A stretch of 64,000 bases of DNA, from contig NZ_JACBXU010000001.1 of the NCBI RefSeq assembly GCF_013415305.1, positions 558,001 through 622,000 on the forward strand, written 5' to 3'. The notes beneath the pieces were generated by a model. It ran no database searches, was not told the origin of the DNA, and saw nothing but the letters and a program-made list of their open reading frames with translations. Shown here piece by piece: positions 13,576 through 40,811 of the stretch (the first letter of the stretch is position 1; every line of letters begins with the position of its first letter). The position numbers and the translations under genes were made by a program. This DNA is from Pantoea sp. WMus005 (GTDB lineage: Bacteria > Pseudomonadota > Gammaproteobacteria > Enterobacterales > Enterobacteriaceae).

Positions 13576-13651
13576 TGGCTCCTCTGACTGGACTCGAACC
13601 AGTGACATACGGATTAACAGTCCGCCGTTCTACCGACTGAACTACAGAGGA
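13576..13651 (-). tRNA. tRNA-Asn (GTT), copy 1
   Basis: 76 nt on the minus strand, from TCCTCTGTAGTTCAGTCGGT to AGTCAGAGGAGCCA; the anticodon loop is CTGTTAA with anticodon GTT, and CCA is encoded. The acceptor stem is TCCTCTG/CAGAGGA. Its mature sequence is identical to copy 2 at 40736-40811. Confidence 0.98.
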
Positions 13652-28342: not shown

Positions 28343-28562
28343 GCCTGTAGAGGTCGTTTTCACCATCAGAACGTTAATTATCGTCGCGGGCCGTTCATGC
28401 CTCGCCGATAATTAAACCACATTGATGTCCTCTCTCATCAAACGGATCCCCTTTAAGCGACAGCACCGCGATAACACACTCACCTTGCGCTACGTCGTTG
28501 CGATGGAGGCTACGCGGCGGCGGCGCTGCCGGACGGCTCGCCCTGACTGAAAACAGAAATGC
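28343..28562. other. Intergenic stretch left of the island
   Basis: About 220 bases with no gene that I can support. It ends at the ancestral tRNA-Asn terminator. Confidence 0.4.
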
Positions 28563-28599
28563 AAAAAGCCCGCTCGGGTTTCCCTGAGCGGGCTTTTCT
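28563..28599. terminator. Ancestral tRNA-Asn terminator at the left island end
   Basis: Hairpin AAAAAGCCCGCTC/GAGCGGGCTTTT with T-runs on both strands, nearly the same as the hairpin at 40694-40728 next to the intact tRNA. It now lies downstream of the leftward defence-like operon and could end its transcript. Confidence 0.8.
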
Positions 28600-28604
28600 A
28601 ATTC

Positions 28605-28758: not shown

Positions 28759-31700
28759 TCACTCCTGCCCCTTGTTTGCGATATTGCTAACTACACCCAA
28801 AAGAAGATGATTACGGAGTTGCTCAGGATCGCCCATTGAGTACTTTATCAATTCATCATTAGACAGAACGTCCCGATAGTTTTGTGATAGGCGGTCAATC
28901 AGGGAATTGCATTCGTCCTGTATTGATATTATGGCGTTTTCAACCTTGGGCGCTTTTGTGAAGAGTTGCAACCTACTGGACAATGCAAAAATCCACAAAT
29001 TCACAAAATGTGAGTAACTATAAATTCTCCAGTCCACCTGAGCTGAAATAGGTTTTCTGATATTACGAGCCATCTTATCAGCTACTTTCTCGATGTTATT
29101 AATAATTCTCAACTGATCTATTTCGTTTAAGCAACTGAAAATAATCGCCAACTCATCAGTGAAAGCACCTTCACGTTTCATATCGAAAAATATATGCTGT
29201 TCCGGTCTCCATTGTACAATTAGGTCTTCCAGCCACTGGCTGGCTATCTGGCGTGGATTAACTACCCCTTGTTCCAGCATTGGAACAAGCAGTGCCTCCA
29301 AAATCCATGCTGTCATATGATGCAACCTTCCAGAATGGCCGCGAACAGGCTCGAGCAGTTCCTGAAATTCCTGATCCGCTAATGGTTGCTGAATTAACGT
29401 TCCCAAGTGTTTAACGAGTGCTTCGCGACTATCTGATTGAAAATAATTCGCCTCATTAATCAGCCAACAAAGGATGTAGAGTTTTTCCTTGGTACTGAAA
29501 CAATCTAATTTGTCAAAATGTTGTATTGCATCATCATTATTCTTTATTTGGTCGCTCAGAAAATGCAGGCCAATCCATTGTAAAATAGGGGTGCCACTTG
29601 ATATAAGTGCGTTTACGGATTCCTGACGATTCCCGTGATATGGGTCAACACATATATGGCGGAGGGCTGTCGTGATAAGGTCATACAGGCGAACTTGAGA
29701 TTTAGCCCACTCAACATTACCACGTGGCCATGCGTTGATTTGTTCAGAAAGCCACCTGATAAACCTAACTGGTGATTTCATCCACATGAGTGTAATTGCG
29801 TAATAATCTCCATACAGGTAACTTCCGGGGGAATAGCTAAAAATTCGCTCCGGTGAACCGCCATCTTTGAGCCAAAAGTGAAGATCTTTATCAAGGTATC
29901 TGTCATAGTCTATGAGTAACCTTGAGTGCTTCCTGTGATCAAGATGTATTTGCCTGTTAGCGTCAAGGTATTGAACAAGTTTATCCTCTAGGGATGACAG
30001 TAACGGTCTATTACCCATTCTGTACAATTCACCTGCAGGTAAATTGGCTAGAATATTACCAAAAGCATCCCAAGTGCTGTTGAATGGTTCCAGATCAAAT
30101 CCCTTTTCCCAGAAGTGTGAAGGAATGTCGCCAAATTTCTGCTCATTGAGGCTATCATCTTTGTACAAATCCAGTTTTTCAGCCGTTTCTCTAAGCTTTT
30201 CACCGTACAATCCCTTCATCTCAGGGAGATTTAGCCACCAGAAAAAAACATCACCACTGTGATTAAAATCAAACGGTGTCAAATACTTGAAGTTAGCTGT
30301 TCCGGGATTAGTATCATGATTCCTCGAATCGAAAATCACTTTCTCGATTTTTGATTCTTCCGCCGTATGTAGTGACGATTCAATAAGATCATCCATATAA
30401 CGGAAAACATCTGGCAGTACATCTCCGGGAATAGATGTTACCAGCAATGGATTATTCTCATTTGCCAGTTGTATAGAGTTTGAGACATGGTAACCCACAA
30501 CAGGGAGACCTTGAGGAGAACGAACAAGAATCATACGATCATGTATTTTTTCTGCAGGCAGTGCAACAACACGCAGATGCACGTTACCAAAAGAAGAATT
30601 TCCCCATTCCTGGCATTTCTGAATTAGTTTTTGGATACGATCTTGCGTGGCTTGAGAGTCTGTAATTTGTTGGGAGCTTTCATTAATTTCTTTACTGACA
30701 TCGACCTGTATTATGGCATTGATTTTCTGCAAATTGGTAGAACTCTGCGGCTTTTCGGAAGTAAAAACTAAATAGTCCCCAGCTTCCGTCCCCATACGAT
30801 TGAGTAGGTCTATACCCACATCCTCCATGTATGGATCAAACCAGGCAATTTGTGCGGCGGGATATGCATCGAAAGTCTTGCGGAGCCACGCCACCAGTTC
30901 CAGACGGCTCATGCCTCTACTGTCGGAAAGTTTAGGAAAGAATTGAGATTCTGATTTTTTCGGGAGCAAACGAGTCAGAGACCTTGCAATAGAATAATTA
31001 AGATCAACCCATTGGTCGTCCTGATAATCACCGTAAACGTGTCGTGAATGTGTGGTTGAACGACTTACCTCCCATGCACTTTCAAGTCTGTGTAGTTCTC
31101 CTTTGGGGACCTGTTTTGCCAGCCAGTCAGTCTTACCTGCGGTTCTAATTGTCTGATGTACATTTAAATTCATATTCATGCTGCGATTAAATGTATATCC
31201 ATTTAAAACACACATAAATGCTTCGTTGGTATCATCTGGTTGTGCCAAGATTTCAAGAGTACAGGCAGTAGCGGTTTGTTTTTTAAATGAATCCACATCA
31301 AATCGCTTCGTGATAGGGTAGGTTTCGTTTTTGTCTATGGTTGTTACATGCGTCGATTGCAGGCAGCCGCCACTGAAGGATTTAATAATTACAAGAAGCT
31401 TGGCTGGAAAGTGTGTAAGTGATTCAAAAAGTGTCAGTGAAGCAAACTCACCTTTAGCTTTAAAAGAAACTCGAGAGGTTTCTTTACGGTTGAGTGCTGG
31501 TGCACAAAGGAATTCAAAATCACCAAAACGCCAGGCGTCATATTCAGCGAATGCCATACCGGTATCGGCATCAATTGAATCACAAGCAATTCTTGCAACA
31601 TGAACTGCATTCCTACTGCCGAAACTCTCAAACAGAGATGCTTTACTTACTAAGGAGATGGCCCCACTGTCGTAACTGGCATATGAACTGGGACTGAGTC

Positions 31701-32145
31701 TTTTTGTCACGGATTTGAAATGATCACGTGTCGGTAAATGCATTACGGGCCGAACACATATGTCTGGTTTAAAAGTTACGAACTTAAAAATTTTAACAGT
31801 TCTTTCATCGGCATTGATGTTTGCAGCGATGCTGGCATCGTGGAGCGTTGAACCTTTAATTAAGCTCTCAGCAAAGTGTTTCAGAGAACTAGCTGAAATA
31901 TAAACAGTAAATGGGAGGACGCGAACAGAATCTTGTTCTGACAGTTTTATCATTTTTCCATTAACATTACCTCTCCATTGGCTACCAATAAAATCTGCTG
32001 GAAGCGCACGGCCATAAAGCCATTTAACCTGTGTTTCCTCAGCACTCTTGAATTCCATAAGCCAAATCTGGAGAGCGCAGGCTTGCTTGTCCGCTCCAAA
32101 TATGTCATACAAACGCGGATCTGATATTAAATTATCAAAATTCAT
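28759..32145 (-). CDS. Large island protein with a PLD-like HDR motif
   Basis: 1128-aa protein, third gene of the island operon. I do not recognise a characterised protein, though VPA1262-type large proteins come to mind from memory. Around residues 430-560 it has a phospholipase-D-like pattern: AAQIAWFDPYMEDVGIDLL (strand ending DPY), then EKIHDRMILV (H535-D536-R537) and GYHVSNSIQL, i.e. the HDR...GxxxSN form common in bacterial immune proteins, with Arg where HKD enzymes have Lys. The N-terminal 400 residues look like mixed alpha/beta and the C-terminal 500 helical. GAGGGA precedes the ATG. It may be a nuclease or ligand-binding effector; that is inference. Confidence 0.7.
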   Translation of the reverse strand: MNFDNLISDPRLYDIFGADKQACALQIWLMEFKSAEETQVKWLYGRALPADFIGSQWRGNVNGKMIKLSEQDSVRVLPFTVYISASSLKHFAESLIKGSTLHDASIAANINADERTVKIFKFVTFKPDICVRPVMHLPTRDHFKSVTKRLSPSSYASYDSGAISLVSKASLFESFGSRNAVHVARIACDSIDADTGMAFAEYDAWRFGDFEFLCAPALNRKETSRVSFKAKGEFASLTLFESLTHFPAKLLVIIKSFSGGCLQSTHVTTIDKNETYPITKRFDVDSFKKQTATACTLEILAQPDDTNEAFMCVLNGYTFNRSMNMNLNVHQTIRTAGKTDWLAKQVPKGELHRLESAWEVSRSTTHSRHVYGDYQDDQWVDLNYSIARSLTRLLPKKSESQFFPKLSDSRGMSRLELVAWLRKTFDAYPAAQIAWFDPYMEDVGIDLLNRMGTEAGDYLVFTSEKPQSSTNLQKINAIIQVDVSKEINESSQQITDSQATQDRIQKLIQKCQEWGNSSFGNVHLRVVALPAEKIHDRMILVRSPQGLPVVGYHVSNSIQLANENNPLLVTSIPGDVLPDVFRYMDDLIESSLHTAEESKIEKVIFDSRNHDTNPGTANFKYLTPFDFNHSGDVFFWWLNLPEMKGLYGEKLRETAEKLDLYKDDSLNEQKFGDIPSHFWEKGFDLEPFNSTWDAFGNILANLPAGELYRMGNRPLLSSLEDKLVQYLDANRQIHLDHRKHSRLLIDYDRYLDKDLHFWLKDGGSPERIFSYSPGSYLYGDYYAITLMWMKSPVRFIRWLSEQINAWPRGNVEWAKSQVRLYDLITTALRHICVDPYHGNRQESVNALISSGTPILQWIGLHFLSDQIKNNDDAIQHFDKLDCFSTKEKLYILCWLINEANYFQSDSREALVKHLGTLIQQPLADQEFQELLEPVRGHSGRLHHMTAWILEALLVPMLEQGVVNPRQIASQWLEDLIVQWRPEQHIFFDMKREGAFTDELAIIFSCLNEIDQLRIINNIEKVADKMARNIRKPISAQVDWRIYSYSHFVNLWIFALSSRLQLFTKAPKVENAIISIQDECNSLIDRLSQNYRDVLSNDELIKYSMGDPEQLRNHLLLGVVSNIANKGQE

Positions 32146-32431
32146 AGTTCCCTCAAAAGATAAGTGAAGTAGACAACTTCTTAGTGATGATGTGTCAGTT
32201 TTATGCCGGTTTTAGTTCAATGTGCTTTTTTGAGATTTCCGTTTTTCAGTCATTATTCGGTACTCTATCAATATCGAGTAAATCAGGAAATTATGAAGTT
32301 GCGGGCTTTTGTATTCCGTCAATCAGCATTTCGTGCTCCCCAGAGCTTCATTCAGCATTCAGAACAGATAAAAAGTAAGATTGTTAAATTGTTGCCTTAC
32401 TAAGCCGTACTAATCATTAAAATTAGTAATG
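32146..32431. other. Gap inside the island operon
   Basis: 286 bases between the second and third genes. No hairpin terminator or strong promoter is recognised, so read-through is possible, but a weak internal promoter could sit here. Confidence 0.35.
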
Positions 32432-33223
32432 TCAAAAAGTTGTATCATCTTCTGTTTGCGCATCTTCAATTGCTGGTAGGGCTTCAAGTTGTGATTTTAG
32501 TTGTACGTCTAACTGAGTGGCCAATGAAAGAAATGCTGCAAGTTTTTTTTGCCGTTTCTCTAAGATTCGCCTTTGCACATTATTGGGATTACTTTTGTTG
32601 GACGGATTGCCGCGTAATTGAAAAACACGAAATTCAATTAGATCGATATCTTCGTCTAACCCAGCTTTTTGTGCCAGTTCCACCCATTCTTGAGATTTAT
32701 CAATAGCATTTTCTGCGGCTAAAGAAAGACAATAATCAATCAGGATTTTGGATGTCGAATCGATGCTTTCTGCGGTTTTTAACCATTTTTGTGACTCAGT
32801 AGATTCTTTTTCTATATTAGCTTGTCCTGGGTAGGGGAAGAAATATCTCGGTTGCTGATTTTCAGGGTCAAGACTTCTTAAAGCCCGTAGGATGGGCTCA
32901 AGTTCCTTAAATGGTTTATTACCAATCGGCAGTTCATAGCGGTTAGCCCAGAAGGCCCAAACAGAGTCCCTGATCTTCAACTGTTTCGCGATGCGCGCAG
33001 TTTCATCTGTGGTATTTTCTGCGTCGTAAATCAGTTCCGCGATATGGTGTGCCATCCAACGGCCTAATGTATCAACAGAGTCATTTAACGCAAGTTCTTC
33101 AACCAGCTTTTTCCCCAGCTTTATAATTGCCGTATAACGTTCTGAAGGTTCCGTCATGCTTGATGAGGAAGATTCTAGTACTTGTGGGGATATTCTCGAG
33201 CTCATCTTCATTACTCCGTCCAT
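32432..33223 (-). CDS. Accessory protein overlapping the NTPase gene
   Basis: About 263 aa, mostly helical, unknown family. It overlaps the 3' end of the 2092-aa gene in another frame. The start is uncertain: ATGs at 33223 and 33205 each have GGAG eight bases upstream, a GTG at 33232 lacks one, and an ATG at 33157 (MTEPSERYTAIIKLGKKLV) lacks one but begins the best-structured part. Visible segments include LGRWMAHHIAELIYDAENT and RRILEKRQKKLAAFLSLATQ (basic coiled-coil). No catalytic motif is seen; a structural or regulatory partner of the two large proteins is inferred from the overlap. Confidence 0.65.
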   Translation of the reverse strand: MDGVMKMSSRISPQVLESSSSSMTEPSERYTAIIKLGKKLVEELALNDSVDTLGRWMAHHIAELIYDAENTTDETARIAKQLKIRDSVWAFWANRYELPIGNKPFKELEPILRALRSLDPENQQPRYFFPYPGQANIEKESTESQKWLKTAESIDSTSKILIDYCLSLAAENAIDKSQEWVELAQKAGLDEDIDLIEFRVFQLRGNPSNKSNPNNVQRRILEKRQKKLAAFLSLATQLDVQLKSQLEALPAIEDAQTEDDTTF

Positions 33224-36200
33224 ATCTGTCACTCCGCGAGTAGCGATTTACATCAACCTCTATAATGAGATCCATGTTTAATGTTGTTAACACGTTTTTG
33301 ATAAAATCCACCGAGGCGCAAAGTCTGTAACCACTTGGTTTCTCGGTTTCATTTTTTTCTGATAGATGGCCCCATATACTGGATATCATATCTGGCTCGG
33401 TATTATGGGCTGAGAGCCACACTCTACGATCTTCATCCGTAGCCAATTTCATTGCTTTAATAATAAATGGTGCAGGCTCTGGCACTGGAAATTTCACATC
33501 GCCTGCCCAAGGATCGTATTCGTCAATCCCATTGTATTTATCGGTATCTGTGACCCATCCCTTTAATTGAAAAAGGGGATGTTTAATTTCCAAATGATCT
33601 CCTGCGTCAGGAATTTTGTAGTCATATGCATTTTCAGTAGTTTGCAATGCCCTAAGCAAAGAGAATGAACTTTCCGGTGATACAAGTGCAGTATAAACCG
33701 CGACAGATTCTCTTCTGTCAGAGCAGCTTTCTGACCAGTGCCCCCATACGGTCAACAATCCAGCAGCGGGATTTAGTGCTTTGTCAAAAATGTTTTCTGA
33801 AATTGATCCTAGCCATTCATTGAGATTACCAGAAGTGTCATTAATCCAGCTTGGCCTGATTTCGGGTTGTGGATCTCGCCGATCGGCTAACCAGCGCCCA
33901 TCACTACGTGAAATATCATGCCTTTTTAGCCAATCCTGAAAAACGTCATCTATTTCATCGTAACGGCTATCCACTAATGGCTTGGTTGCCAATAGTTTTC
34001 CAGCCGAGATGAACATTGCATGGTAGGAGAGGTAAAAATGGTAATCATCAACACGTGGATAGGAACCATGGCTGTGATAATTATCTCTGTCTCGATAATA
34101 ACGCCGTTTGTTCCGCTCATCTTCTTCCCAGTTACGGGTTCCTTTAAAATCAAAATCATCGCGAATAATGCGTAACATTTCGGGTTCAAGCTGTTTTTGA
34201 GATACTCCAAAACAGCGGCCTAAAGGTTCCAGCCAATATGGGCCAAAATCAATACCAAAAATGTATGAATCCTCGCCCACTAAACTTTCAGAGTCACTCA
34301 CTGTTGGATCATACGTTGACCGGTTTATGTTGGAAAGGTTGTCTCTTTCTTGAGCGGTTATAGATATCAATCCAGCTTCATTAAGCGCGAGCAGGGCTCT
34401 GGCGGCAAAAAGGCGGATTAATACATGTGGTTGTTCAGTTGTCGCGTAGCGATAAAAATAATCGGTATAGGGTATCAGCGCTTTTCCGTCATATTGCGCG
34501 GCACGTGCAACAGCAATTAATAACCATAATTGAGCATGGAGGTTATAGAAGGGAAGATTGCGATCGCAAAAGGGCTGTGTTGAGCAATTTTCAGCATGTT
34601 GAAATATTGCTTGAAGCACTTCGGAACGTTCTAATCGGCAGAGCATAAAAACGGCATGAGCGGCTTCCCAGCGAACAGTTGATTCTGGCGACGCTAGCCT
34701 GGCCCATATATACCCCGCAAGAGAATCCTCTACCTGAGTTGGGGGAATTAATGTTGGTCCCCATGGACCATCACCATCTTCCTCTTTCAATACTTCATTG
34801 AATAAGTCCAGCCCATAAGATAGGACATTTAATGCTTCTTCTGGGGGCAACTTATTAACCAAAAGCCCTACTAGGCTAAACAGTTGTCGTGAATCTGATG
34901 GTTCTGGTGATTCAGATGTCGCATTTAGAACAATACTGATTAACTCATCTTCATTGAGCCCGGAAAGTTCGCTGGCAACCTTAAAAGGGAACACTTCGTA
35001 GTAGCGATGCTTTCTAATAAGCATGCAGAAACGCTGGCAGTAACTTTTGGTTACTGAAGCAATAGCTGTTTTTATGCTTAACCGGGTTGTCCATTCCTCA
35101 GGGATGGATTCAAGAAAAGCCCCGAAGCTATAAAGGCTGATCTCAGATAATTTACCAAAAGCGTTAATAAAGTCTTTTTCTTTGCCAAAACTAATACGAG
35201 TTATCGCCTCTTGAATAAATAACTCGGTTGAATAGAGATCAGGTTCATGACGGAAGTTTTGGTATGCAATAGAAATCCCTTGGGATGTAGATAAATCAAA
35301 CATGTTGAAAACTCTTTGCCATGCTGCTTTAGATTTTTCGTCAGTTTCAGTGGTGTGGTCGCTTGTTGATTCCAAATCTGATCTGGACTGATCTTCAACT
35401 GAAATGTTTATATTAAGATCAGTGATATTTATTCCGATGGACAAAGCTATGGTTTTAATTCGTGTTAATTTTTCTGAACGCGGTGAGGTGAATTGGATGT
35501 AATTATAAACCCATTGAAAAAGCGTTTGTTTGTCCTGATCGCTTTTACATAAAGGCAGAGCAGCTATTAGTAACTTATCTTCGTCCCACTCTTCCCGGAA
35601 GGGGATTAATGCTGTTGCATCAAGTGGATTGATTTTATTTTTCTTTACTAGTTGTTCTATCGTTAACGCCAGTATACTTCGGTGATCACCAAACGTACGA
35701 TCTCGCCAACGACTAATGATGGCCAGAGTGGAAGATGGGCATAATTCAGACAACGCTTTGATCGTATCGTTCCATGCGAAATGTTTATCACGATCAACAT
35801 ATTCTCGAGTTACTTCGGCACAGCGTGAGAATTTATAGGCCATTTCTGGTGATGCTATGTTTTTGTCGGCAATGTATTCCGCCAGATCAAGTAATGCTCC
35901 CCATCGTTCCAGATTTTCATCACCGAGTTTATTGGTGACTTCAATAGCGTGGTTAAAATATTCTTGAGCTTCTGACTTATCGAGTAAAATAAGCGATCTA
36001 GCTATATCGATATAGTTCTCAGCCTTGGTTTGTGCGTCAGTGTGGTCATCCTTCCACAAAGATAGTGCCTGTTGCGCGAAGATAAATGAAAATTTTTCAA
36101 GCCCAGTTATCTGCGAGCAAAGACGGGAAAATCTGTGCAATGTCGGTGTAAAGATCCTGTTGTCCTTATGTTGATACCATGCAGTGATTTGTTCGATATC

Positions 36201-39200
36201 AGCACAACTAATATCTCCGACTTCAGATAAAATATCGAACCAGATATTAGCTATTTCATCACTGCTAAAAGAATGCTCCGAGTATGAATATCCTTTTATT
36301 TCCGCTGATAACTTTTTTGCATCCGCGAGTTGATTGTCTAACTCAGCCTTGAATACTTTCCCTAAAAGAGCTTTAGCCCATAAGTTATACCAAGGAATTA
36401 ACACACCACTATATTGCTTTAATTCGCGAAGTTCCTGTGATTCACTATGCTTTCTTTCAGCGTTTATCTCTTCAATGACCTTTTCAGATGCAATATCACT
36501 CAAACTTAATGGTGAGTTAGTTAATGTCGCGCGTAGCGCATACATTCGTATATATTGCACACGTTCTTTACTGTGTTTAGAGGACAGGGCATTCGGAGCG
36601 GATTGGGGTAAATAGCGGTTTAAAAGTGTTATAGCTTCGTTGTCATTACAGACATTAAGCTGTAGCGCCATTTCAATCATGCTGGTTATTGCTGCTATTT
36701 TCTGATTATCAAATGAGTATCTGATTTTGATTTTCAGATGAGAGCTAGCTAATAAACGATAGCCTCTCTTTATAGATTGTTCAGGTAATTGGTAATGGAA
36801 TTTTCTGGCAATCAATACAATAGCTAAAATTAATCCAAGATCATTTCCTGCCGCGATAGATAACTGGTTCAGCTCTGTATAACGGCCGTGATCCAGTAAT
36901 TGTTTGGCAATGATTATGCCGGCACTGAAAGATAATTCTCGAGGTCGCCATCGGCGAAGGCTTCTTGACGCTTCATCAGCCCCATGAATATTCAGATAGG
37001 CGATCGCCATAACAGCCCTGTCCTGAGCGGTTACGTTTTCTCTGCTGCGTTCATCATCGTTTAGTGAACTCCAATTATCTAACCATTCCAGAGCAATACG
37101 TAGTCGGCTACGGGCGTCACCAGAGAGCTCTGGAAATTCCGATAAAAGCGCAGAGTTATAGACGTTTTGTGACCCAACCCAACCAGTATCAGAAAAGGCA
37201 CGACGTGAAATAAGCTCCTGAACACTGTGGCTGCCCATAAATTTTGCAGTCAGATCAAGATTATCCTGCAATAATTTTCGCTGCCTGCTGTCGCCTGCAC
37301 TTTCTCCACCTGCTTTGAGCGCAAGTTTTGCCGCATCCTGATACTTCTCAAGGCGTAACGCAGCTTTCAGGGCGAACTGCAGTCTTTGAAGTTCAACATC
37401 TCGGCGTTCGATAGGACTCGTTTCTGGTAACCCTTGGGATGTCATTGCCAGAGTGACGAGTTCCGAAAATTGCCCAGCCTCAAGCATTAGCGGTGGTAAT
37501 ACTGACGCAGCGTAGGCACTATTTTTTGTTAATGGCGTCAGTCGGGCAATAAACTGACGAAGCTCTTTTTCTTTAGGGTGATATCGTTCCTGAAACCACG
37601 TTTCAGCAGGTTCATCAAAGAACTGGATAGTATCCCCATTGACGATTAGCGGCCGCCCAAGATCCAACGCAAAACTTTTTATTGCGGATTGATCAATTTC
37701 GGCGATGGCAGACAAAATAGCGATAGGAATGAGTGGGCGAAGTACCGCCAGTGCTGCACAAATAAAATCGATCTGCGTACGTTCTGTATGCCCAGTCGCA
37801 TCTTTCAACTGGCCGATGGCGGCTTCGAGTACTTCTCCGATAGTATCTTCCACCGTTTTGGGATTAGGACCTAATAATCTCAATGTTTCTGGCAGTGATA
37901 AACGTCGCGAAAGTGACAGTGCCTGAACTCTGGGGTTATGAGAGCTCAGTCTATGGAATTCATCCACATCCTGCTCATTTGCATCCGGGAATATTCCACG
38001 CAGGTGTGCGGCAGTTTCGTTACGATCGAAAGGTTGTAACGTCAGGCTGGGCGTGCCGGGGCGTGGATCGAGCAGACTCTGCCTATGTGGTCTGCATAGT
38101 GCAACAATACAAACTCCTGAGGGAATATTCTCTCTGAGTAGATCTCTTATAAATGAACGTGATTCGTTGATTTCCTCTGCAGCCATTTGAGCATTATCTG
38201 CGGCATCAACAATAATGCACAATATTGCCTCAGGATGTGACGCTCGAAGCGTGGAAATTCCCTGAGAAATACGATGCATAAATGCACGCATATAGTGAGA
38301 AATGTCAGTACTGGCGTTCGGAATTAAAGGATGACATAGGCCATGTGACGCTATCTCATTGGCAATCTGCACTAATGCGGTTCGGTGGTGATGACGATAG
38401 GCCGAAGCATTGCGGTATTGTCCATTACCAAAGCAGTCATACAGAATACTGACTGACCCCTCAGGCAGGTGTTGATGAATGCGGGTTGAGAAAATTGATT
38501 TGCCTACACCTGCGTCAGCATGAACGATGATAGGTGAGTCCATAGACTCAACAATATTTTTGACGAGTGAAATCTCTTGTATTCGAGGTATCACATTTTC
38601 AATTTTCTCTATCAGACAAGGTGCGGGGAATAGATCTGTTTCGTCTACCCCTAACGCACGTAAAACATCCATTCTGGTAATCGCTGGATCTGATGCACTT
38701 TCTGATAGCGCCTTCCTAGTAATAAGTTCTTTTAGATTCAGTGGGGCTTGGGTGTCAAGATCAGGGAGATATCCGTTAGATTCTCTCAGGAGAATATTTC
38801 GCTGTTCCCAGTAACCATCCTGTCGTTCTTCAATGTGAAGCATTTGGCAAAAGGATACCAACCCTTGATCATCCAGACCTGTAAATTTTTTAAGTTTAGC
38901 AAGTTCGTCTGGATGGCGAGGAGGGTGTTGATTTGCCATATCGGTAATCGCTTCACTGAAACTAGTACTCACAGGACGGTTAGTGACAAACCATAATTCC
39001 AGCTTACTATGCAAGGATTCAGTAGGAAATCGCTTCAAAAGTTCTTTATAGCGTTTGGTGAATCCTTCTATCGTTTTCTGTAATCCGCTAGGGGGCCATG
39101 CTGTTTCAGCATGTAATGTTGAATGCTTCAATTGCATATATCTGACAGTAGTCGCTTGCTCGAACTCATTACTGCCATAGTATTCGGCAATATCAATGAT

Positions 39201-39377
39201 CTCTTCGCCTTCCTCCACCGATGGTTGTGATCCCATTTCCGCTGTCGAAGCACCTTCAATTGTAATTGCAGCTAAAGACGCTTTAGGGTCTAACAATCGG
39301 AGGGCTCGGCGGGCAGCCCAAAGATAGTGAAATTGATCTCCATCCCTACTGGCTCGAACAAGCAAGCTGTCTGACAT
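33099..39377 (-). CDS. Giant Cap4-like nuclease-STAND NTPase protein (Avs-like)
   Basis: 2092-aa protein, first gene of the island operon. Residues 1-90 fit a Cap4/DUF4297-type PD-(D/E)xK nuclease: RDGDQFHYLWAARRALRLLD, E41 in ITIEG, D62 in EIIDIAEYYG, and Q82-L-K84 in YMQLKHST. A STAND-type NTPase follows: Walker A HADAGVGKS (286-294) and Walker B ILCIIVDAAD (385-394). The remaining ~1500 residues are helical, resembling TPR/ARM-type sensor repeats (QDRAVMAIAYLNIHG, AENYIDIARSLILLDKSEAQ). The layout nuclease-STAND-repeats is that of Avs phage sensors. AAGGA precedes the ATG. All nuclease and NTPase residues look intact. Sensing of a phage protein followed by DNA cleavage is inferred. Confidence 0.8.
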   Translation of the reverse strand: MSDSLLVRASRDGDQFHYLWAARRALRLLDPKASLAAITIEGASTAEMGSQPSVEEGEEIIDIAEYYGSNEFEQATTVRYMQLKHSTLHAETAWPPSGLQKTIEGFTKRYKELLKRFPTESLHSKLELWFVTNRPVSTSFSEAITDMANQHPPRHPDELAKLKKFTGLDDQGLVSFCQMLHIEERQDGYWEQRNILLRESNGYLPDLDTQAPLNLKELITRKALSESASDPAITRMDVLRALGVDETDLFPAPCLIEKIENVIPRIQEISLVKNIVESMDSPIIVHADAGVGKSIFSTRIHQHLPEGSVSILYDCFGNGQYRNASAYRHHHRTALVQIANEIASHGLCHPLIPNASTDISHYMRAFMHRISQGISTLRASHPEAILCIIVDAADNAQMAAEEINESRSFIRDLLRENIPSGVCIVALCRPHRQSLLDPRPGTPSLTLQPFDRNETAAHLRGIFPDANEQDVDEFHRLSSHNPRVQALSLSRRLSLPETLRLLGPNPKTVEDTIGEVLEAAIGQLKDATGHTERTQIDFICAALAVLRPLIPIAILSAIAEIDQSAIKSFALDLGRPLIVNGDTIQFFDEPAETWFQERYHPKEKELRQFIARLTPLTKNSAYAASVLPPLMLEAGQFSELVTLAMTSQGLPETSPIERRDVELQRLQFALKAALRLEKYQDAAKLALKAGGESAGDSRQRKLLQDNLDLTAKFMGSHSVQELISRRAFSDTGWVGSQNVYNSALLSEFPELSGDARSRLRIALEWLDNWSSLNDDERSRENVTAQDRAVMAIAYLNIHGADEASRSLRRWRPRELSFSAGIIIAKQLLDHGRYTELNQLSIAAGNDLGLILAIVLIARKFHYQLPEQSIKRGYRLLASSHLKIKIRYSFDNQKIAAITSMIEMALQLNVCNDNEAITLLNRYLPQSAPNALSSKHSKERVQYIRMYALRATLTNSPLSLSDIASEKVIEEINAERKHSESQELRELKQYSGVLIPWYNLWAKALLGKVFKAELDNQLADAKKLSAEIKGYSYSEHSFSSDEIANIWFDILSEVGDISCADIEQITAWYQHKDNRIFTPTLHRFSRLCSQITGLEKFSFIFAQQALSLWKDDHTDAQTKAENYIDIARSLILLDKSEAQEYFNHAIEVTNKLGDENLERWGALLDLAEYIADKNIASPEMAYKFSRCAEVTREYVDRDKHFAWNDTIKALSELCPSSTLAIISRWRDRTFGDHRSILALTIEQLVKKNKINPLDATALIPFREEWDEDKLLIAALPLCKSDQDKQTLFQWVYNYIQFTSPRSEKLTRIKTIALSIGINITDLNINISVEDQSRSDLESTSDHTTETDEKSKAAWQRVFNMFDLSTSQGISIAYQNFRHEPDLYSTELFIQEAITRISFGKEKDFINAFGKLSEISLYSFGAFLESIPEEWTTRLSIKTAIASVTKSYCQRFCMLIRKHRYYEVFPFKVASELSGLNEDELISIVLNATSESPEPSDSRQLFSLVGLLVNKLPPEEALNVLSYGLDLFNEVLKEEDGDGPWGPTLIPPTQVEDSLAGYIWARLASPESTVRWEAAHAVFMLCRLERSEVLQAIFQHAENCSTQPFCDRNLPFYNLHAQLWLLIAVARAAQYDGKALIPYTDYFYRYATTEQPHVLIRLFAARALLALNEAGLISITAQERDNLSNINRSTYDPTVSDSESLVGEDSYIFGIDFGPYWLEPLGRCFGVSQKQLEPEMLRIIRDDFDFKGTRNWEEDERNKRRYYRDRDNYHSHGSYPRVDDYHFYLSYHAMFISAGKLLATKPLVDSRYDEIDDVFQDWLKRHDISRSDGRWLADRRDPQPEIRPSWINDTSGNLNEWLGSISENIFDKALNPAAGLLTVWGHWSESCSDRRESVAVYTALVSPESSFSLLRALQTTENAYDYKIPDAGDHLEIKHPLFQLKGWVTDTDKYNGIDEYDPWAGDVKFPVPEPAPFIIKAMKLATDEDRRVWLSAHNTEPDMISSIWGHLSEKNETEKPSGYRLCASVDFIKNVLTTLNMDLIIEVDVNRYSRSDRYGRSNEDELENIPTSTRIFLIKHDGTFRTLYGNYKAGEKAG

Positions 39378-39412: not shown

Positions 39413-39441
39413 ATTATAACCCCTGATATTTTAAGTGACTA
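39413..39441 (-). promoter_or_regulatory. Promoter of the island operon
   Basis: Leftward TAGTCA (39441-39436), 17 bases, TATAAT (39418-39413); the start codon at 39377 is 35 bases from the -10, giving a short leader. Confidence 0.7.
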
Positions 39442-39900: not shown

Positions 39901-40680
39901 AAAACGAAATTTTCTCAAACCAGAACAGATATTTATCAGACCGTCACCTACAACATCATTGCATCACTTGAGCCAGTGTAAAACCGTGGTCTTGCCCGTG
40001 GCAACGAGCGCCGGGCATGTCTGGGTTGCCTCCAACTTCGCAACCGATGGCGCGTATAGCGGACAAGTACGTATGGGAGAGCATGGCACTACCGCGATTC
40101 TCTATTCCATGTTGGAAAAGAAAAATGACGACGGAGAAACTTGCTATATCCCGATGCTGAAGACGTTCACCGTGTTTAATATTGAGCCAATTGACGGTTT
40201 GCCCCTGAGTGAGGAAGCAGTTTGCTCGGCAGAGACCTTTGAGTCGTTACCGCGTGCGGAAGCGCTTTTCCGTAAAAGCGGTGTAACCATCATTGAGAAG
40301 GGACAGAATGCCTTTTTTGTACCGTCAATCGACGAAAACCTTTTACCGAAACGATATCTGATTGCCAATACTGCCAATTTCTACGCAACTGGCCTGCATG
40401 AGCTTGTTCGCTGGAATGGGGTAAAAGTCGGCTGAACCTTGATATGAAAGGGAAATTTGGTAGTAAGGGGTATGCGTTTGAAGAGTTGATCGCAGAGTCG
40501 GGGATCGCATCCTTGATGGCAGAACTGTGGATTGATAGAAAGGTACAGCATGAAAGCTATATCACTTCCTGTCTGAAAGCACTGAAGAACGACAAACACT
40601 ATATTTTCAAGGCTGCCAGTGCGGCGTCCATAGAGCATCTTTATTTGGTGGATAAAATCCAAGTCAGTAAGAGATTCACC
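39901..40680 (+). pseudogene. ArdC-type antirestriction protein, broken
   Basis: Remnant of an ArdC-like protein (single-strand DNA-binding N-domain plus zincin metalloprotease domain) as found on conjugative elements. Fragment 1 ends RTDIYQTVTYNIIASLEPV and stop at 39979. Fragment 2 (frame of 39959-40435) reads GQVRMGEHGTTAILYSMLEK through ANFYATGLHELVRWNG. Fragment 3 continues in another frame, KSRLNLDMKGKFGSKGYAFE to IFKAASAASIEH. The join between 1 and 2 lacks the conserved middle (deletion), and a one-base shift near 40419 separates 2 and 3. The zinc motif expected as HELVH is HELVR, so catalysis would be lost even without the frameshifts. Confidence 0.8.
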
Positions 40681-40693
40681 AATCGTACCAAAG

Positions 40694-40728
40694 CAAAAAG
40701 CCCGCTCAAGTTTCCTTGAGCAGGCTTT
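40694..40728 (-). terminator. Terminator of tRNA-Asn copy 2
   Basis: Hairpin AAAAAGCC-GCTCAAG/CTTGAGC-GGCTTTT with a mismatch, just 3' of the tRNA; carried in with the island if the integration model holds. Confidence 0.85.
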
Positions 40729-40735
40729 TCTAATT

Positions 40736-40811
40736 TGGCTCCTCTGACTGGACTCGAACCAGTGACATACGGATTAACAGTCCGCCGTTCTACCGACTGA
40801 ACTACAGAGGA
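40736..40811 (-). tRNA. tRNA-Asn (GTT), copy 2, island integration site
   Basis: 76 nt, same sequence as copy 1 (13576-13651): acceptor TCCTCTG/CAGAGGA, anticodon GTT, encoded CCA. Its 3' 16 bases are duplicated at 28605-28620. Confidence 0.98.

Follow-up and report, generated by a model that had tools for sequence, protein, structure and literature searches.

The Avs1-4 proteins are described, in PMC12931631, as sensors of terminase or portal that kill by means of a nuclease, and for one of them, SeAvs3, PMC11291478 reports a tetramer in which the nuclease domains are paired. The VPA1262 family (profile NF040699) was first named from the island VPaI-6 of Vibrio parahaemolyticus, and PMC1464126 places members of the family on that island as well. 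The two meet in a 64,000-nucleotide stretch of DNA from Pantoea sp. WMus005 (contig NZ_JACBXU010000001.1, positions 558,001 to 622,000; this whole stretch is called the window below), where three adjacent genes read leftward. An earlier reading of the letters alone, referred to here as the sequence-only reading, had proposed that the three form one new immune system transcribed from a shared promoter. As judged by sequence, the first two genes are the known two-gene Avs3 (AVAST type 3) system; with high probability, the third is a separate VPA1262-family gene, encoding a predicted phospholipase D (PLD) nuclease, that is a neighbour of Avs3 on one tRNA-Asn island.

The Avs3 pair and the gene beside it

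The genes and the sites between and upstream of them are as follows (GC, guanine plus cytosine fraction).

33099 to 39377, minus strand: avs3a, 2092 residues; Cap4-like PD-(D/E)xK nuclease, NACHT/STAND NTPase and C-terminal sensor
32432 to 33157, minus strand: avs3b, 241 residues from the ATG at 33157 (candidate start), or 266 residues from a GTG at 33232
28759 to 32145, minus strand: VPA1262-family gene, 1128 residues; likely a PLD-type nuclease, from sequence and structure model
32146 to 32431: gap between avs3b and the VPA1262-family gene, 286 bp, GC 0.353
39413 to 39441, minus strand: promoter-like site upstream of avs3a, TAGTCA-17-TATAAT, 10 of 12 consensus bases

All three minus-strand frames that the sequence-only reading had named are present, and its view of the giant first protein as a Cap4-like nuclease joined to a STAND NTPase on the Avs plan was borne out. 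Avs3a scores 3133.3 bits against the NCBIfam profile NF041816 (cut-off 2800; residues 7-2081), 3724.8 bits against the PADLOC Avs3a profile and 33.3 bits against Pfam NACHT (cut-off 26.7). It also matches SeAvs3 (PDB 8DGC) over residues 1-2091; the nuclease region is free of gaps in the printed alignment, and the P-loop HADAGVGKS is identical in both proteins. The overlapping helper noted beside the giant is Avs3b by both profile collections, with 273.8 bits for NF041817 (cut-off 200) and 380.7 bits for the PADLOC Avs3b profile. It is encoded directly downstream of avs3a, overlapping the 3' end of that gene, and no solved structural relative was found for it by sequence at E <= 1. The earlier view that no named system has such an arrangement is not supported for the first two genes, which the profile searches identify as the described Avs3a/Avs3b pair. 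The likeness to AVAST type 3 and SeAvs3 extends over the full length of Avs3a, its NACHT NTPase, its Cap4-like nuclease region and the overlapping Avs3b; what sets the present locus apart is the VPA1262 gene that follows, which is absent from all 16 of the other Avs3a loci examined. The terms "AVAST type 3" and "Avs3b" were not mentioned in the literature searched, which shows little since most subscription papers lie outside it.

The start of avs3b can be placed in more than one way. The second frame, 32432-33232, encodes 266 residues from its GTG or 263 from an ATG three codons on, and the Avs3b profiles start at residues 29 and 39. The ATG at 33157, which leaves a 59-bp overlap with avs3a, corresponds to the annotated avs3b start in Escherichia coli PS10-3; in Klebsiella variicola pKPN692_2 and E. 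coli JNEC-KY175 the annotated start lies 16 codons further upstream. Just downstream of avs3b, at 32408-32428, there is a perfect 7-bp inverted repeat (TACTAAT...ATTAGTA), possibly a product of chance.

By analogy with SeAvs3, the C-terminal sensor of Avs3a would bind the large terminase subunit of an infecting phage, and the protein would then tetramerise through its NTPase domain, uniting the N-terminal Cap4-like nucleases. These would cut phage and host DNA and so end the infection.

Co-occurrence of Avs3 and VPA1262

If the three genes formed one system, as had been claimed, they should be found together elsewhere. Neither Avs3a nor Avs3b was found at any of 49 VPA1262 loci on genome contigs (29 of them with more than 8 kb of DNA on both sides), nor at any of five plasmid loci. 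Conversely, Avs3b lies beside Avs3a in 11 of the 16 other Avs3a loci, and VPA1262 in none; eight of these loci come from seven genomes, in which a whole-genome search found no VPA1262 with a query that does match the window's genome. The plasmid records tell the same story, with 19 carrying an Avs3a relative, five carrying VPA1262 and none in common. Among 61 genomes of the same genus, Avs3a exceeds its cut-off in one, which is the window's own, and VPA1262 in two; the second of these, G1158, has a VPA1262 protein that is 38.7% identical and no match to Avs3a. The avs3a DNA is present in 4 of 5426 E. coli genomes, and a distant blastn search of the same 5426 gave no match to VPA1262. Even relatives of Avs3a as close as 89-93% (E. 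coli PS10-3 and an IMG/VR contig) are without it. A conserved three-gene system of Avs3a, Avs3b and VPA1262 was rejected on the empty counts at these loci, on G1158 and on the lack of a recurring neighbour of VPA1262 (below); the neighbourhood survey did not find the third gene with the first two at any other locus examined. Both conditions that the sequence-only reading had set for refuting its claim thus went against it: a profile match to a described system, here for the first two genes, and rare joint occurrence, here in the loci surveyed.

Several points weigh on the other side. Flanks were short in 20 of the 49 VPA1262 loci, and measured 1.5 kb in eight of the 16 Avs3a loci; the survey leaves out the loci of the closest VPA1262 relatives (P0001, 90%, and P0002, 88%; one is named Pectobacterium carotovorum); and the Avs3a matches of the seven genomes above all fall under the Avs3a cut-off, one of them being a fragment of 39 positions. 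In the window itself the three genes are co-directional, share one island and are similar in GC (0.413-0.430), and no terminator-like site is listed within the 286-bp gap. The VPA1262 gene may therefore still be co-transcribed with Avs3 and act as its local partner. The shared promoter proposed at 39413-39441 held up in part: the site itself is there, but the region has 23 promoter-like sites against 26.8 in shuffled sequence, so that the site alone is no evidence, and a gap without a listed terminator-like site neither shows nor excludes a single transcript.

One could imagine from this a three-gene composite, in which VPA1262 was recruited to Avs3 in this lineage as a second effector or a regulator and is co-transcribed and co-activated with it. 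The common strand, the common island, the low GC throughout and the missing terminator would all suit such an arrangement. We nevertheless consider it improbable, given the absence of Avs3 from the 49 genome-contig and five plasmid loci of VPA1262 and of VPA1262 from the other Avs3a loci, the close Avs3a relatives that do without it, the VPA1262 gene of G1158 in a genome lacking Avs3a, and the contrast within the locus between avs3a and avs3b, which overlap, and the VPA1262 gene, which stands 286 bp away. Most likely, the pairing of Avs3 with VPA1262 is a coincidence on one island.

Two carriers of Avs3 can be described in more detail. The IMG/VR contig (L103:303-7242) has avs3a (89%) and avs3b (82%) near one end and no VPA1262. 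In a 10.4-kb Klebsiella variicola plasmid (NZ_CP089387.1), avs3a and avs3b are among six annotated genes and fill over two thirds of its length.

The VPA1262-family protein

The third protein scores 952.3 bits against NF040699 (cut-off 325), covering positions 1-1025 of the 1026 in the profile, and 321.7 bits against NF040700 (cut-off 80). It resembles the rest of its family in this match and in being encoded by an accessory gene on an island, and differs in that the copy here adjoins Avs3. Two papers mention VPA1262 by name, and neither assigns the family a function. The structure model predicts an N-terminal alpha/beta and beta-sandwich region, then a PLD-fold domain, and a C-terminal helical solenoid. 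The central domain is placed as follows.

30271 to 30948, minus strand: PLD-fold domain of the VPA1262 protein, residues 400-625, with H535-D536-R537 and S555-N556-S557-x-Q559

The HDR-type PLD region that the sequence-only reading had picked out in this protein is real: the single H-D-R motif is invariant in 48 of 48 family rows, as are the S, N, S and Q that follow. A PLD fold for residues 400-611 is backed by the structure model and by related proteins, and the best-ranked structural matches of the model include the nucleases SauUSI, NucT and Nuc. Short VPA1262_N proteins, moreover, match Pfam PLDc_2 over its cut-off. Taken from model and sequence together, the gene likely encodes a separate PLD-fold nuclease.

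Among described enzymes, the nearest are the single-motif PLD nucleases Nuc, NucT, BfiI, the NgoAVII R protein and SauUSI, which have in common with the VPA1262 protein the PLD fold and one H-centred motif. The canonical PLD motif is H-x-K-x4-D; the VPA1262 protein differs in having H-D-R without the usual aspartate, in the large size of its N-terminal region, in the length of its helical C-terminal half, and in that no methyl-DNA or DNA-recognition domain was identified in it. DrmC of DISARM, a PLD nuclease in a defence setting according to PMC9142583, is a looser parallel, likened by description and not by sequence; VPA1262 is without adjacent DrmA or DrmB and has another domain plan.

That the protein is a nuclease has to be weighed against a number of results. 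Family members do not conserve the aspartate that follows H-x-R in PLD enzymes, the position five beyond the R being taken by R, M, V, I, L or other residues; a PLD model was matched by none of 29 VPA1262 members; no Pfam family was matched at E <= 1; Foldseek alone gave no match at E <= 0.001, whether for the whole model or for the PLD domain; and the fold matches also include FAM83A, PPK1 and TrmB, PLD-fold proteins that are not nucleases. (PADLOC likewise gave no family at E <= 1, and the search for solved relatives by sequence returned only two chains, at a not meaningful E of 0.36-0.45.) The protein could instead be a PLD-fold protein that acts on phospholipids or only binds DNA, carried on the island as membrane-active or regulatory cargo. 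We regard this as unlikely, though a good deal less so than the composite discussed above, because nucleases are among the best-ranked structural matches, because H, D, R, S, N, S and Q are invariant throughout the 48 rows, and because VPA1262 neighbourhoods appear rich in defence genes. That the gene is inert cargo or in decay seems very improbable indeed: the broken ArdC-like gene on the island and the lack of a visible integrase would fit, but the frame of 1128 residues is intact without an internal stop, every invariant residue of the family is retained, and full-length relatives exist at 88-90%.

The family is widely spread. VPA1262 exceeds its cut-off in 3 of 394 Enterobacterales genomes and in 1 of 369 in the class sample. 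It is carried on islands and on plasmids, and its range reaches beyond Enterobacterales and Vibrio to Bacillota, to cyanobacteria and to one archaeal bin. None was found in 50,697 phage records, and of the 28 IMG/VR stretches that matched a sequence pattern none was confirmed. PADLOC has no model for VPA1262 as a family. Clustering of the neighbours at 55 loci brought out no conserved partner, since even the most frequent recurring family is present at only 5 of them; a same-strand open reading frame within 60 bp upstream is present in 5 of 47.

The company that VPA1262 keeps was assessed with a defence scan of 111 of the 160 nearest neighbour proteins (47 loci; 49,497 residues) and 111 of 174 control proteins (41,086 residues) from 18 chromosome stretches, placed at round-number positions in nine genomes. 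With a threshold of E <= 1e-10, 180 PADLOC families were matched by the neighbours and 39 by the controls. Matches among the neighbours include Drt4, DpdF, QatC, PglW, Mokosh and type I restriction, whereas several of the control matches are housekeeping look-alikes. It is to be held against this comparison that it counts families and not genes, with several families overlapping on one protein, and that its control is crude, non-random and smaller, so the excess is suggestive only. It suggests that VPA1262 tends to sit among defence genes.

How might such a protein work? The active form of half-site PLD enzymes, Nuc and BfiI among them, is a dimer. Two copies of the VPA1262 protein would likely pair in the same manner, their single H-D-R half-sites forming one PLD active site. 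The nuclease would stay inactive until a phage cue reaches the helical C-terminal half, a likely sensor because it adjoins the nuclease, and the triggered protein would then presumably cut nucleic acid. We put forward tentatively, at somewhat less than even chances, that VPA1262 works on its own as an anti-phage system encoded by a single gene, with no NTPase or partner, in which a helical-repeat sensor is fused to a half-site PLD nuclease and dimerisation sets the nuclease off, and that on the mobile island described here it serves as a back-up to Avs3.

The short VPA1262_N proteins have surroundings of their own. At two loci (L137:6687-11057 and L136:5581-10026), VPA1262_N/PLDc_2 proteins of 604 and 591 residues are found in the same gene order beside a small PLD-like protein with an HDRF motif (57% over 168 residues) and a protein of 639 or 647 residues (78%) that has no PADLOC or NCBIfam match. 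The gene set is possibly a separate defence-like operon in two genomes. The idea that the 639-residue protein is the C-terminal half of VPA1262 was ruled out, with a profile-comparison probability of 0.24%.

The tRNA-Asn island and the meaning of the locus

The three genes share one 12.1-kb island of low GC bounded by repeats of the tRNA-Asn end.

28558 to 28603: left boundary of the island, a repeat of the tRNA-Asn 3' flank with a terminator-like hairpin; if a 1-nt indel is allowed, the repeat reaches about 28620
40690 to 40735: right boundary of the island, the other copy of the repeat, adjoining tRNA-Asn
40736 to 40811, minus strand: tRNA-Asn (GTT), called by ARAGORN; likely the integration target of the island

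The boundary repeats are direct, 46 nt long, 89% identical and 12,132 bp apart, and the repeat extends into the 3' end of the tRNA with a 1-nt indel. GC is 0.413-0.430 in the island genes and 0.548 and 0.561 in the flanks. A chemotaxis gene in the neighbourhood finds its best named match in P. agglomerans, at 90%, which points to Pantoea as the likely host. In the same-genus relative G1099 the site is empty, and the flanks of the window meet there at a single copy of the repeat; this was seen in one of six relatives, the left flank of the other five being non-contiguous or outside the compared piece.

Between the tRNA and avs3a, on the plus strand, an ArdC-like zincin gene is split into two adjacent pieces (39959-40435 and 40444-40719) in different frames, which cover positions 2-58 and 67-125 of the MPTase-PolyVal profile and so represent a broken mobile-element gene. 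No integrase was seen on the island in the list of open reading frames. A second tRNA-Asn (GTT) is found elsewhere in the window, at 13576-13651. In two E. coli genomes (L123:97-14407 and L124:96-14407) the avs3 genes are on an integrase-bearing island at tRNA-Asn; one of the two has its avs3a region divided between two annotated frames.

A tRNA-Asn site has here taken up Avs3, and the two E. coli genomes likewise carry Avs3 genes at a tRNA-Asn. Avs3 was already known, and what is new here is another member of the named VPA1262 family beside it. The claim of a new three-gene system is dropped, and the uncharacterised, widespread VPA1262 family is a better candidate in its place: its predicted PLD nuclease, in what looks like a defence-rich setting, lends itself to study by itself. 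The main interest that remains in this locus is the function of VPA1262.

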